NCBI GenBank assembly: GCA_018820855.1
Contig: JAHJNL010000029.1
Coordinates: forward strand, 62,001 to 126,000
DNA: 64,000 bases
Source of the DNA: Pseudomonadota bacterium
GTDB lineage: Bacteria; Desulfobacterota; Desulfobulbia; Desulfobulbales; Desulfocapsaceae
Reading direction: 5' to 3'
Part shown: piece after piece, positions 49,823 to 58,839 of the stretch
Numbering within the stretch: the stretch's first letter is position 1
How the letters are laid out: each line of letters starts with the position of its first letter
The notes under the pieces: generated by a model
The model's input: only the letters and a program-made list of their open reading frames with translations
The model's database searches: none
Told to the model about the DNA's origin: nothing
Translations under genes and position numbers: made by a program

Positions 49823-50761
49823 TTAGAATCGTCCTTTCAATGTAACACCAACAAAAGGCGCTGTGTCGTAGTCTGTTTCACCCAACTTATTGCCATTTTT
49901 ATCCTCGATGGTTATGTCACCGGCAAAGAGCATACCACCATTAATATCAAAACGATAACTCTCTCCCAGGCGCCAGCCCACCCGTACAAAATATGCCCAA
50001 AAATCCACTTCACCAATCCCATCTGCGACTGAACTGCTATCATCCAGCCGAAAACGATACGAACGGTAGGCGCTTCCCATGCCAAGTTCCCAACTGTTCT
50101 TCGAGTTGTAGACCACTTCCAGCCCTGCCGGACCCACCGGCCCTGCAGGAAAAGGATTAGTGAGCAAAAACTTTTCATTTATCTTCCAGTTAATGATCAC
50201 ATAGGGAAAAAACTCTGCCTGATCCAGGCGATCATAAATACCAGCCCCAAAGCCCAGCATCAAATCCGGTCCAAAGACATGGGCCGCCGACACCACTGCC
50301 CCATAGGACAGGGATTCACTGACTTTAGCACCAGAGGCACCTGAAAAATCTACGGAAGGAATAAAACCAAAACGCCAATCAGTTGTGGTACTATAAAAAA
50401 TGGGTACCCTGATGCCCGGCCTGAAAATCTCGTCCCACGTATCAACGGAAGCCAAACGCTCGATGCCGGAAAAATTCCAGCGCTCATAATCAAAGCTCAA
50501 GCCAAGACCCACGGTCCAACGCTTCTCAATGGATCTGGAAATATTAAAGCGAAGCAAGTGACGCTGAACATCAAATTGCCCCCCCTTGCCCATATCAGTC
50601 TCGAACTGATAAATGGGGGTATAGGATAAGCTATAGCCTGTCTTCGAGCTGCCGCCCTTTTCCGTACTATTTGATTGTGCCTCTGCATGACCGGAAAACA
50701 ACAGTGCTGTAAAAAAGAAAAAAAACACGATCATGGTTGAGAATGACTGGTTTGGATTCAT
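49823..50761 (-). CDS. Probable outer-membrane beta-barrel protein
   Basis: 312 aa from ATG 50761 (AGAGAG at a suitable distance; frame open upstream). A signal peptide (SGHAEAQS) is followed by alternating hydrophobic strands rich in Tyr, Trp and Phe, ending FVGVTLKGRF with a C-terminal phenylalanine, the outer-membrane sorting signature. The channel or adhesin role is unknown. It is last in the minus-strand operon after the FKBP-methyltransferase, B12 regulator and thioesterase genes, 44 nt after the last. Confidence 0.7.
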   Translation of the reverse strand: MNPNQSFSTMIVFFFFFTALLFSGHAEAQSNSTEKGGSSKTGYSLSYTPIYQFETDMGKGGQFDVQRHLLRFNISRSIEKRWTVGLGLSFDYERWNFSGIERLASVDTWDEIFRPGIRVPIFYSTTTDWRFGFIPSVDFSGASGAKVSESLSYGAVVSAAHVFGPDLMLGFGAGIYDRLDQAEFFPYVIINWKINEKFLLTNPFPAGPVGPAGLEVVYNSKNSWELGMGSAYRSYRFRLDDSSSVADGIGEVDFWAYFVRVGWRLGESYRFDINGGMLFAGDITIEDKNGNKLGETDYDTAPFVGVTLKGRF

Positions 50762-50804
50762 TGTATGTCTCTCTATAGTTTTCATAAGCATAAGTTGCTT
50801 CAAT

Positions 50805-51233
50805 CTACGACGTTTCATGCTCACTGGCCAGATAGGGCATAAAACCGTCTCGTACCCGTGAGTCAAGGGCTTTTGGCTGATGACTCACACTGTCGATAAA
50901 GAGCCCTGTCTGCCGACCATCTGCAGTCAACTCACCCTTTCCGTTATAAAAACGGAACTCCATAATTGCCGAAACATTTTTCAACTTCGATAACCAGACC
51001 TCTATGCGAACCTTGTCACCAAGAAAAAGCTGTTTTCGATAACGAATTTCAGTGTTAATTAATGTGGGAAACAGACCAAGCCGTTCCACCACCTCCTGAA
51101 CAGGCATACCTACACGTTCAAGGAGCTTGAGACGACCGATCTCCATCCACTGAATATAGATAATATTACTGACATGACCGGCAAAATCAATATGATAGGT
51201 ATAAATGTTTTCTTCAATAATGATCTTTTTCAT
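50805..51233 (-). CDS. Acyl-CoA thioesterase (hotdog fold, 4HBT family)
   Basis: 142 aa. YTYHIDFAGHVSNIIYIQWMEIGR is the YbgC/4HBT signature, although the usual catalytic Asp-His-x-G is replaced by DFAGHVSN (family members vary here). It probably hydrolyses acyl-CoA or acyl-ACP thioesters in the cytoplasm. Its start overlaps the B12-regulator stop by 4 nt, so the two are translated together. The regulator may thus control fatty-acyl supply. Confidence 0.85.
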   Translation of the reverse strand: MKKIIIEENIYTYHIDFAGHVSNIIYIQWMEIGRLKLLERVGMPVQEVVERLGLFPTLINTEIRYRKQLFLGDKVRIEVWLSKLKNVSAIMEFRFYNGKGELTADGRQTGLFIDSVSHQPKALDSRVRDGFMPYLASEHETS

Positions 51234-52186
51234 TTATCCTCCAGATTAAGCAGCTGATAAATATCTGCCGGCAGCTGTAACAACGGAGACATGAGTTTAC
51301 ATCCCACCCCCAGCAAGAGTGGGTCATCTGTACGAACTCCCTGGCCACCCACCACAAATAAATTGGAATTCCGTCTGATCAGCGCAGCCAACTGAGAGCG
51401 ATTATTCCTGTATATGCTCTGGCTGGTCACAGAAAGCCAGACGCTTGTCGGCCGCAGCTTTATAATAGTATGTTGCAAAGCATCCAGCGGCAGAGCCGCA
51501 CCAAGGTAGACAACATTATATCCCTGTCGAGCCAGGGCATAGGAAACAGCAAGCACCCCAAGCCTATGCTCTTCTCCTGGAAAACAGCAGCAAAGAACAG
51601 GTGAAATCCTCTTCTCCATTGTTGCCGTGCGGGCCTGATCCAGACAGTTACGCAGATACTGTTCGACCATGCTGCTGACGAGATGTTCTCCGGCTACGCC
51701 GATCCTTCCGGAAAGATACAATTCCCCCACTCTGGCCATGACCGGAAGAAGGACTTCGTACACCAACCTGTCTGGACTGAGTTCCAGCATGGCGTGCTGG
51801 AGCTCAGTCCCTAACTGTTTCAGATCAACGGTTTCCGCGGCAGAAACAAGTGGTTTGATATAGCTCTCCAGTCCATTACCGCGCTCTCCCTTCTCTGTTT
51901 CACTTGCAACTCCTTCCTCTCCTGCTTCCTTCTTTGTGCGGACCTGTTTTAAAAGCTGCTCCCTGCCCAGAGCTGCAAGCTCGCCAATACGATGTCCGCC
52001 TGCAATGCTCTCAGCAATATGGCATATCAGGAACATATCCTCCTGGCTGTAGAGGCGCTGTCCGCCCGGACCTCGTTCAGGAATCCAGAGAGCGTAACGC
52101 TTTTCCCAGGCGCGCAGCAAAGTAGGAGTGACACCGCTTTCACGGGCCAATGTTCCGATTTTGTAGAATGATTTATCCCCAGCCAT
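51230..52186 (-). CDS. MerR-family B12-binding regulator (CarH/LitR-like)
   Basis: 318 aa from ATG 52186; the frame is open upstream but homology begins here. A MerR HTH (YKIGTLARESGVTPTLLRAW) is followed by a helix-bundle and a B12-binding fold. Lower-ligand histidine is His207 in PGEEHRLG, the ExHxxG motif. CarH uses a Trp-x9-Glu-His motif in the helix bundle; here it reads Tyr157-x9-Glu167-His168, so the tryptophan is replaced. CarH/LitR proteins repress as tetramers in the dark with adenosylcobalamin and release DNA in light. 11-bp repeats that match its operator type lie at the promoter region 53.5 kb. Confidence 0.9.
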   Translation of the reverse strand: MAGDKSFYKIGTLARESGVTPTLLRAWEKRYALWIPERGPGGQRLYSQEDMFLICHIAESIAGGHRIGELAALGREQLLKQVRTKKEAGEEGVASETEKGERGNGLESYIKPLVSAAETVDLKQLGTELQHAMLELSPDRLVYEVLLPVMARVGELYLSGRIGVAGEHLVSSMVEQYLRNCLDQARTATMEKRISPVLCCCFPGEEHRLGVLAVSYALARQGYNVVYLGAALPLDALQHTIIKLRPTSVWLSVTSQSIYRNNRSQLAALIRRNSNLFVVGGQGVRTDDPLLLGVGCKLMSPLLQLPADIYQLLNLEDK

Positions 52187-52187
52187 C

Positions 52188-53396
52188 TTATTCTTTTCTT
52201 CCCCAGGCCATGTAAACCGGGTCACTGAAGGGTAATTCCCAGTGCGGATCATCATCCGGACGTGGTAAACCACGTCTGCTCAAGGCCGCAAGATCTTGAA
52301 AACCAGGAGTTCTGTGAAACATCTCCAAAACCATAGCCAGCCTTTCGAATTCGTGCAGTCTCGTCCATATCTTGATTGCCTTGGGCGGAAACCAGCGATT
52401 GGAAAAGGCCAGGGCCAGAACACCGCCAGGCTGCAGCACCCGATGTATCTCTTGAAACACAAGTAAAGGATTAATGAGATATTCAATTGAGGCCGTACAC
52501 ATTATAGCGTCAAAACTGTTGTCAGCAAAGGGCAATAAGGGATTTTGATTTAGATCGTGCACTACTCTTTCAGTGGCCATTGTATTGGCAGCCAACTCTT
52601 CCTTGTTCATTCCCAAGACAATGAGCTGCTGCAAATCCAGATTTCGGGGAAGATGCGATTCCCAACTTCCCATAAGATCAAGACCCCGGGAACCTTGTGT
52701 AATGATCCGTCCATACTGTTCTGTGATAGCAGTGCGAGCGGTGGAGTCAAGATGATGCACCATTCTCTGCCCTTGGTAGAACAGTGTATCGGACGATCCA
52801 TCGGCACGATCAAATGGTTGCGAAGCAAAAAAGGCAGATGACTGACCGTGATAACGGGCCTGCATGCCCGGACCATCGGCACACAGTCTTTCCAACCAAT
52901 CTTCACAACGTCCTCCCCGCTCCAGCTGAGTATCATATATTTCAACTATGGAGGCGCTGAGGCTCAGATCATGGCCGGCAAGGGGGTGGTTCAAATCAAA
53001 AAGGTGATATCCCTTTTCCTGTCCCACGTACCGGGCCGGAGAAAAGGTGTCAGAAAACACGCCACTTACACCATGCAAATAGCCCTGGGGGTAATAGCGG
53101 CCATACTCCAGGTCCAGGGTTTCCTGATGTTTTTCAGGATGATACACCTGATCCGACCGTACTCGAACCAGCCTGTTCGTTTGATACGGTGCATGGAAGG
53201 AGTTCGCAGGTACAGGTACCGTAACATGCTCCCCCTGATTTTTACCAGCAAGTGCTGCTGCAAGATCCGGCAGCAAAGAATCACGCCACAGATTCACCGG
53301 ATCGGCCCAGAGACTGTCTTTGTATTGGACGCCACCATTCTGCCACTCCACTGTAAATTCTATTACTGCCCGGCCTTCTTTATCAAGTGTTTTCAT
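52188..53396 (-). CDS. FKBP-like domain fused to a SAM-dependent methyltransferase
   Basis: 402 aa from ATG 53396, preceded by GAGAGGG (a TTG at 53411 is also in frame). The N-terminal half has the SlyD/FkpB hallmark DLNHPLAGHDLSLSASIVEI near residue 140, and an upstream FKBP-like segment. The C-terminal half is a class I methyltransferase (GLDLMGSWESHLP, LPFADNSFDAIMCTASIEY, RVLQPGGVLALAFSNRW). The fusion of proline isomerase and methyltransferase is uncommon; the substrate is unknown. One nucleotide separates it from the B12 regulator gene. Confidence 0.82.
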   Translation of the reverse strand: MKTLDKEGRAVIEFTVEWQNGGVQYKDSLWADPVNLWRDSLLPDLAAALAGKNQGEHVTVPVPANSFHAPYQTNRLVRVRSDQVYHPEKHQETLDLEYGRYYPQGYLHGVSGVFSDTFSPARYVGQEKGYHLFDLNHPLAGHDLSLSASIVEIYDTQLERGGRCEDWLERLCADGPGMQARYHGQSSAFFASQPFDRADGSSDTLFYQGQRMVHHLDSTARTAITEQYGRIITQGSRGLDLMGSWESHLPRNLDLQQLIVLGMNKEELAANTMATERVVHDLNQNPLLPFADNSFDAIMCTASIEYLINPLLVFQEIHRVLQPGGVLALAFSNRWFPPKAIKIWTRLHEFERLAMVLEMFHRTPGFQDLAALSRRGLPRPDDDPHWELPFSDPVYMAWGRKE

Positions 53397-53480: not shown

Positions 53481-53546
53481 AAACATAGACAAAACATAGA
53501 CACAACCCAAGTAAAGTCAACAGAAGAAACAGACAAAACATTGACA
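53481..53546. promoter_or_regulatory. CarH-type operator: 11-bp direct repeats
   Basis: AAACATAGACA occurs as exact tandem copies at 53481-53491 and 53492-53502. AAACATTGACA (one change) lies at 53536-53546, exactly 44 bp (four units) from copy two; the unit before it (53525-53535, AGAAACAGACA) keeps the ACA. All fit a TnnACA core with 11-bp phasing, the pattern of known CarH operators. The first pair overlaps the -10 of the fusion-operon promoter and the third copy holds the yfcH -35. Confidence 0.75.
53493..53520 (-). promoter_or_regulatory. Promoter of the FKBP-methyltransferase/B12-regulator operon
   Basis: On the minus strand, TTGACT (53520-53515) and TATGTT (53498-53493) are separated by 16 bp. 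Transcription would begin near 53486, leaving a leader of about 90 nt. The -10 lies inside the second 11-bp repeat, so binding there should repress. Confidence 0.6.
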
Positions 53547-53569
53547 AACAACATTACACACCTTATTTT
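53541..53569 (+). promoter_or_regulatory. Promoter of the YfcH-like gene
   Basis: TTGACA (53541-53546) and TATTTT (53564-53569) with a 17-bp spacer form a near-consensus sigma-70 promoter. The -35 is part of the third 11-bp repeat, so a regulator bound there would block polymerase. Start near 53576, 42 nt before the ATG. Confidence 0.7.
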
Positions 53570-53617: not shown

Positions 53618-54508
53618 ATGAAAGCACTGATCACAGGCGGAACAGGTTTCGTAGGACGACATCTTGCAGCAAGGATACCAGAGTCTATTATTGGAGGACG
53701 CAACGTTAAAAAAATCCACCACCTCTTTGGCAACAGAGAAGCTCGACAGTGGGATGGCTCAAAGAATACAGACCCCTCTTTTCTGGATGATGTAGACACC
53801 GTATTCCATCTGGCTGGTGAATCAATATTTCAAGGGCGCTGGAATGAAGAAAAAAAGGAACGGATCCGAGCCAGTCGGATTGAGGGAACGCGTCATCTGG
53901 TGGACGCCATTGCCAAGGCAGAAAACAGGCCAACGACTCTCATCTGTTCTTCCGCCATTGGCTTTTACGGTGAAAAAGGAGAAGAGACAATAACGGAAAA
54001 GGACCCAGCCGGAAATGACTTTTTGGCCCAAGTGTGCATGGATTGGGAAAAAGAAGCCATGCGGGCCGAAAAGTATGGGGTGCGAGTCGTGTCGATTCGC
54101 ACCGGTGTCGTACTCGGGGCCGACGGTGGTGCCCTGGCACAAATGCTTTTGCCTTTTAAACTAGGATTAGGTGGAAGATTGGGCAGTGGTCACCAGTATA
54201 TGTCCTGGATTCATATCCAGGACCTGACGGGTATCATGATTCATGCCATGAAAAATACAGCTCTGCAAGGGCCTGTAAATGCTGTCGCACCTACCCCAAT
54301 CACTAACAGGGAATTCACCCGTGCCCTGGCACATGCCCTGCACCGACCGGCCCTTCTGCCTGTGCCTGGATTTATTCTTCAGGCAGCATTAGGAGAATTT
54401 GCCACTGTACTGCTCAGTTCTCAGCGCGTTGTACCAGATGTCCTGAAACAGACAGACTTCAACTTTACCTTTCCGGATATTGGATCTGCCCTCAGAGATC
54501 TTGTCTAG
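53618..54508 (+). CDS. YfcH/SDR39U1-type NAD(P)-binding oxidoreductase (TIGR01777 family)
   Basis: 296 aa; GGAGG at 53606-53610 gives a 7-nt spacing. Features are the N-terminal GGTGFVGRHLA, VFHLAGESI, SSAIGFYG, SGHQYMSWIHI and the C-terminal domain found in YfcH (LSSQRVVPDVL). The family binds NADPH; its role is poorly known. It is divergent from the B12-regulator operon and shares its operator region. The same gene often occurs with LitR/CarH-type regulators in other bacteria (from memory, not searched). Confidence 0.93.
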   Translation: MKALITGGTGFVGRHLAARIPESIIGGRNVKKIHHLFGNREARQWDGSKNTDPSFLDDVDTVFHLAGESIFQGRWNEEKKERIRASRIEGTRHLVDAIAKAENRPTTLICSSAIGFYGEKGEETITEKDPAGNDFLAQVCMDWEKEAMRAEKYGVRVVSIRTGVVLGADGGALAQMLLPFKLGLGGRLGSGHQYMSWIHIQDLTGIMIHAMKNTALQGPVNAVAPTPITNREFTRALAHALHRPALLPVPGFILQAALGEFATVLLSSQRVVPDVLKQTDFNFTFPDIGSALRDLV

Positions 54509-58752: not shown

Positions 58753-58796
58753 GCTTTTACAAAGAACATTGACATTAAACGTACACATGATATTCA
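58753..58796 (+). promoter_or_regulatory. Promoter with 11-bp-phased CarH-like repeats
   Basis: GAACATTGACA (58764-58774) matches the repeat at 53536 in 10 of 11 positions. The next 11-bp unit (58775-58785, TTAAACGTACA) keeps the ACA at the same phase and the preceding unit (58753-58763) keeps the T. They span the -35 TTGACA (58769-58774) of a promoter with -10 TATTCA (58791-58796), 16-bp spacer. Transcription would start near 58803. Confidence 0.55.
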
Positions 58797-58839
58797 TTAT
58801 ATGTACATCACACTGCAACCTAACTTTTCTGACTTCTCT

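Follow-up and report, generated by a model that had tools for sequence, protein, structure and literature searches.

A predicted CarH-type operator, split into two tandem pairs, beside a Trp-less CarH-like B12-binding regulator in Desulfocapsa-type anaerobes

Introduction

Short tandem repeats lie between the operon of a putative B12-binding regulator and a divergent yfcH-like gene in the 64-kb stretch of DNA analysed here (the window), and they raise the question of whether they form an operator and, if so, to what signal its repressor would respond. CarH operators are built of tandem 11-bp direct repeats of the form nnnnTnnACAn, with a -35 element inside a repeat, and contain three repeats in Thermus and four in Bacillus megaterium (PMC9304148). 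The CarH proteins of Thermus thermophilus and B. megaterium are adenosylcobalamin (AdoCbl) photoreceptor repressors that act on carotenoid synthesis. The window comes from a genome of the Desulfocapsa group, sulfur bacteria that are strict anaerobes, and the sequence-only reading of the locus, which had presumed an anaerobic host, agrees here with the habit of the genus.

Results

Four repeat units in two pairs over divergent promoters

The features of the locus are as follows.
49823..50866, - strand: protein of the DUF6268 family, likely in the outer membrane and perhaps the fourth gene of the regulator operon; its start is uncertain
50805..51233, - strand: acyl-CoA thioesterase of the 4HBT type, probably third in the operon
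51230..52186, - strand: CarH/LitR-like regulator (MerR HTH, B12-binding_2 and B12-binding), with Yx9EH (Y157, E167, H168) and lower-ligand H207
52188..53396, - strand: SAM-dependent methyltransferase, first gene of the regulator operon, with Methyltransf_11 in its C-terminal part
53482..53492, + strand: DR1, AACATAGACAA, nnnnTnnACAn unit (repeat match, published register)
53493..53503, + strand: DR2, AACATAGACAC, with the -10 of the leftward promoter (TATGTT on the - strand) inside
53504..53525, no strand: gap of 22 bp, equal to two repeat units without a core; the leftward -35 lies within
53515-53520, - strand: -35 (TTGACT) of the leftward promoter, in the gap (promoter scan)
53526..53536, + strand: dr5, GAAACAGACAA, a degenerate unit with C in place of the core T
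53537..53547, + strand: DR6, AACATTGACAA, with the rightward -35 TTGACA (53541-53546) inside
53564..53569, + strand: -10 (TATTTT) of the rightward promoter (promoter scan)
53618..54508, + strand: TIGR01777/yfcH-type SDR oxidoreductase (Epimerase and DUF1731), the divergent target

The sequence-only reading had described two exact tandem 11-bp repeats and a third near-copy four units away. All three copies are present: 53481-53491 and 53492-53502 are exact copies of AAACATAGACA, and AAACATTGACA, with one mismatch to it, lies at 53536-53546, 44 bp past the second copy; that inventory missed the degenerate unit at 53526-53536, right before the third copy. In the register nnnnTnnACAn, which was taken from the literature for the unit calls (PMC9304148), the repeats resolve into two tandem pairs, 53482-53503 and 53526-53547, with exactly two empty units between them, so that the site reads AACATAGACAA AACATAGACAC, 22-bp gap, GAAACAGACAA AACATTGACAA. 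The DR1-DR2 pair follows the pattern strictly and the dr5-DR6 pair has one core mismatch. The layout is thus two plus two rather than three or four contiguous repeats, in four Desulfocapsa-group genomes, and it consists of 11-bp direct repeats, not of the TGTACA-N12-TGTACA sites of class II LitR proteins.

Two sigma-70-type promoters were found by the promoter scan against 0.6 expected: a rightward one, TTGACA-17-TATTTT (+ strand, 53541-53569), whose -35 is within the last repeat, and a leftward one, TTGACT-16-TATGTT (- strand, 53520-53493), whose -10 is within the second repeat. The overlap that had been proposed with the -10 of the regulator operon and the -35 of the yfcH-like gene is thereby borne out. 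As for the first gene of that operon, the N-terminal half of the methyltransferase (52188-53396) has no Pfam match, and its homologues in the genomes of the order mostly stand without a regulator.

Judged from the window alone, the repeats are suggestive but statistically weak, and not decisive. The 11-mer with up to two mismatches occurs 19 times in the 64-kb window against 18.8 expected, which is no enrichment; only two strict TnnACA-N5-TnnACA pairs exist in the window, and the probability of one in the repeat region is about 0.04 (dinucleotide shuffle).

The repeats accompany the regulator in related genomes

The regulator is patchily distributed: of 258 genomes in the order, 11 have it, and 46 have the methyltransferase gene that precedes it. 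We scored a strict pair in the 320 bp upstream of the 24 best methyltransferase loci of Desulfobulbales. The pair is present in the methyltransferase promoter at 9/9 loci with an intact regulator and at 0/14 without a regulator (Fisher p = 1e-6, or 8e-6 with the 24th locus counted against; kinship is ignored, so both values are optimistic). At that 24th locus, in G078, the pair persists although the regulator is broken, which suggests that the regulator was lost recently; what is left of the gene (L112, 1188-1495) follows an intact methyltransferase gene and is a pseudogene from which the middle is missing. The repeats are thus retained in all nine cases in which the regulator is intact; their loss from such relatives is what the sequence-only reading had said would count against it. 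The congener G006 (L096 / L131) retains only a regulator stub (residues 168-204) near the yfcH-like gene, the methyltransferase is gone, and the site has decayed to single units 46 bp apart and out of register, as would follow if it is the regulator that maintains the repeats. A regulator fragment with an internal stop also occurs in a genome of another family (L042, G119) and groups with the Desulfocapsa type, possibly through horizontal transfer followed by decay.

Three congeners (L048/G018, L049/G005, L039/G008) share with the window the two-plus-two layout and its exact 44-bp offset; the search of related genomes for 11-bp phasing that had been suggested therefore finds both register and offset kept in four Desulfocapsa-group genomes. 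Among these, 15 of 16 core columns are invariant, as are 8 of 22 gap columns, chiefly those of the leftward -35, with GTCAA the same in all four species. Identity to the window is 68-86% for the repeat pairs and 23-38% for the flanks, with the exception of 60% on one side in the nearest species. At the place of dr5, L038 and L039 have a full TnnACA. In another family (L051-L054) the units are contiguous, L051 having three full units, and a divergent PNPOx-like gene adjoins them in several of these loci. A different arrangement is seen at L050 2863-2937 (G076), where two operator pairs lie on opposite strands, as against two plus two on one strand.

The notion that the repeats arose by chance, or are no more than promoter elements made up of TTGACA-like hexamers in AT-rich DNA, draws on the weak window-only statistics; it is opposed by the co-occurrence with the regulator, by the exact 44-bp register in four species and by the conservation of the pairs above their flanks, and we regard it as extremely improbable. 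Conservation is decisive for the reality of the repeats: the comparison shows tandem nnnnTnnACAn units to accompany an intact regulator, to be absent without one and to lie on both divergent promoters. It is very probable that they constitute a CarH-type operator of the adjacent B12-binding repressor, and repeat register, promoter overlap and co-occurrence all uphold the sequence-only reading on this point.

Neither the window nor a pattern search of the genome yielded another good operator. A candidate at 58765-58790, upstream of a sigma-54-type activator at 58801, consists of AACATTGACA with TACACA 13 bp later; it was rejected as a further operator since this TTGACA/TACACA spacing is 13 bp and not 11, and the sister species, which keeps the TTGACA, has no pair. 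Genome matches with three mismatches were likewise set aside, as they adjoin unrelated genes or fall inside reading frames. In G008 a large gene is preceded, at a distance of about 110 bp, by a second tandem-like site, AAGTTATACAA GAAACAGACAA (L039, 15057-15078), and is a possible further target there.

A CarH-like regulator without the adenosyl-capping Trp

The regulator has the Pfam domains MerR_1, B12-binding_2 and B12-binding in the order expected of the family. Its best PDB sequence matches are TtCarH, the T. thermophilus protein (3whp, 5e-23; 5c8d, 6e-23), and an AlphaFold2 model (pLDDT 80.5) has 5c8d as its best Foldseek match (5e-18). As modelled, it is of the CarH fold, and the earlier description of an adjacent CarH-like regulator holds on domains, PDB matches and model. 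The lower axial motif E/DxHx2Gx41SxT/Vx22-27GG is present in its strict form (EEHRLG...x41...SVT...x25...GG), and with this ExHx2Gx41SxTx25GG motif intact B12 binding is likely; we consider the regulator probably corrinoid-bound.

The departures from CarH lie elsewhere. Where Wx9EH should cover the adenosyl group the regulator has GELYLSGRIGVAGEH, in which EH is kept and Trp is Tyr, and the alignment to TtCarH, gapless here, gives Trp131 to Tyr and His132 to Leu. At the residue numbers that we take to be those of the TtCarH Arg-Asp interface pair, Glu and Ala are found. That pair is important for the CarH dimer interface (PMC9304148), and Wx9EH is absolutely conserved in, and defining for, the CarH proteins that have been studied (PMC8156234). 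Light-responsive signatures include GxxW, EH, GxxH and GxxxP (PMC11796333), of which only the W fails here. The NCBIfam CarH equivalog NF052513 is the best-scoring family, at 116 bits against a cut-off of 400. A Rossmann domain is present, unlike in class II LitR, which has the four-helix B12 subdomain only, and the combination of B12 motif and EH kept with Trp lost is that of CarA. We would accordingly file the regulator, on these traits, as CarH-like rather than strictly CarH, with a split CarH-type operator.

At the Trp position G005, G008 and G119 have Tyr, G018 has Asn and G076 has Cys, whereas the sister-clade loci L051-L054 and L070 keep Trp, as do more distant members of the phylum; from the tree, the loss looks derived in the Desulfocapsaceae clade. 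EH and the lower-ligand motif are invariant among the relatives, and dN/dS against three of them is 0.13-0.21, so that the regulator gene is maintained by purifying selection.

Cofactor supply and light-related genes

AdoCbl should be available, since a BtuR/CobO adenosyltransferase is present in 7/7 genomes tested; the PF01923-type adenosyltransferase is absent from all of them. A class II photolyase (TIGR00591) lies in the relatives' cluster in G008 and elsewhere in G018 and G076, where a yfcH-like gene follows, and the cluster also includes genes for a CrtD-like desaturase, DUF523/DUF1722, PNPOx-like, LigB and DUF1499 proteins. No good tandem pair was found upstream of the photolyase, desaturase, PNPOx-like, LigB or DUF523/DUF1722 genes. 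Pseudomonas class II LitR regions contain genes for a photolyase, a short-chain dehydrogenase and an FAD oxidoreductase (PMC9758184); this likeness, and the photolyase and CrtD-like neighbours, favour a role in light stress. The window genome has no PF00875 match that would indicate a photolyase. Carotenoid synthesis was dismissed as the target, as no phytoene/squalene synthase (PF00494) is found in any of eight genomes, that of the window included.

Discussion

The whole is, we think, rather more likely than otherwise to be best explained by an autoregulatory operator with paired repression, bound in the dark with AdoCbl and released by light. Because the units overlap both promoters, repression of both together with autoregulation is the natural reading, and the repeats would then be the operator of a CarH-like repressor encoded by the second gene of the leftward operon. 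Head-to-tail regulator dimers, one for each tandem pair, would lie in register across the gap; one would block the methyltransferase-regulator-thioesterase operon at its -10 and the other the yfcH-like gene at its -35. Both transcription units would then be repressed together, perhaps through a bridged tetramer. With less assurance, the repressor may bind DNA with AdoCbl in the dark, and light, perhaps with oxygen in exposed sediment, may break the Co-C bond and release it, switching on a photo-oxidative stress set. The light-release step may have changed, however, as the adenosyl-capping Trp is gone in the lineage. The replacement of Trp by Tyr (Asn or Cys in sisters), that of His132 by Leu, the lost Arg-Asp pair and the O2 requirement of TtCarH all count against this explanation, as do a window genome in which neither a photolyase nor a phytoene synthase is found and the searches that yielded no second good operator; classical light control, though plausible, seems to us about evenly balanced.

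Compared with CarH of T. thermophilus and B. megaterium, the regulator has in common the domain order, fold, lower-ligand motif and EH, and its site the 11-bp direct repeats, the TnnACA core and a repeat holding the -35. It differs in the Trp to Tyr and His132 to Leu changes and in the absent Arg-Asp interface pair; in an operator of two plus two units split by two empty ones instead of three or four contiguous ones; and in an anaerobic host with methyltransferase and SDR targets instead of carotenoid synthesis. In Cystobacter fuscus CarH is of the dimer type, and every dimer requires a tandem pair of repeats. Such a mode would suit the operator here, but in that species the two sites overlap and are contiguous, and Trp is present. 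The class II LitR proteins of Pseudomonas (PplR/PmlR) are likewise MerR-type repressors, and the light-induced genes under their control include those for photolyase, short-chain dehydrogenase and FAD-dependent oxidoreductase, but they lack the Rossmann B12 domain, use TGTACA-N12-TGTACA sites and have a LOV protein partner.

The B12-independent paralogue CarA of Myxococcus xanthus, whose antirepressor is CarS, resembles the regulator in keeping EH and the B12-binding motif without the Trp and, as predicted here, in recognizing the same direct repeats, although lineage and targets are different. CarA, which lacks that Trp, is B12-independent, and the loss has been given as the explanation (PMC8156234, PMC9304148). 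The operator could accordingly be real and the regulator CarA-like, binding independently of AdoCbl, not itself a photoreceptor and relieved by some other signal or partner. The loss of Trp across the Desulfocapsaceae clade (Y, Y, Y, N, C) but not in the sister clade and outer CarH-like proteins, the retention of EH and the lower B12 motif in exactly the CarA pattern (PMC9304148), the Leu at His132, the anaerobic host group and the window genome without a photolyase would all fit; yet the invariant lower-ligand motif and EH and the purifying selection on the B12 domain argue that corrinoid binding is probably still used, and the class II photolyase and CrtD-like neighbours in relatives speak for a light role. 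We therefore hold a CarA-like regulator to be possible but unlikely.

A further alternative is that the signal is the upper ligand or the oxidation state of cobalt and not light, with methyl or adenosyl cobalamin, for example, set against oxidised cobalamin on exposure to oxygen. The Trp that helps adenosyl specificity is lost while the lower-ligand motif is intact, and oxygen is a major stress for the host group. TtCarH itself does not convert fully unless O2 is present, and its response already combines light and oxygen by way of the Co redox state (PMC10442372). His132 is needed for its light-driven disassembly, H132A remaining mostly tetrameric after light (PMC10442372), and CtMerR, with Arg at this position, does not monomerise under anaerobic light (PMC11796333). 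Given the association with photolyase in relatives, which suggests light, a switch of this kind without light seems improbable. The wider proposal, which we put forward tentatively and with doubt, is that Desulfocapsa-type anaerobes have a CarH-like repressor that has lost the Trp and the disassembly His, has kept the cobalamin pocket and a split operator paired for dimers, and would be a switch that reads oxygen/redox state or the form of the corrinoid, whether or not light also plays a part, and not a classical green-light photoreceptor.

Under the preferred reading of a CarH-like repressor at its own operator, what appears to be new is that, in anaerobes, a CarH-like repressor lacking the Trp goes together with an operator that is split. 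A CarH-like switch in such hosts would test the mechanism of the family without O2, since the photochemistry of TtCarH depends on O2 to run to completion. The natural series of Trp loss, from Trp in the sister clade to Tyr, Asn and Cys here with the operator kept, may separate DNA recognition from adenosyl and light sensing. Finally, the preserved register of a two-plus-two operator leads one to ask if dimers of the CarH type are able to act as independent binding units where two promoters diverge.
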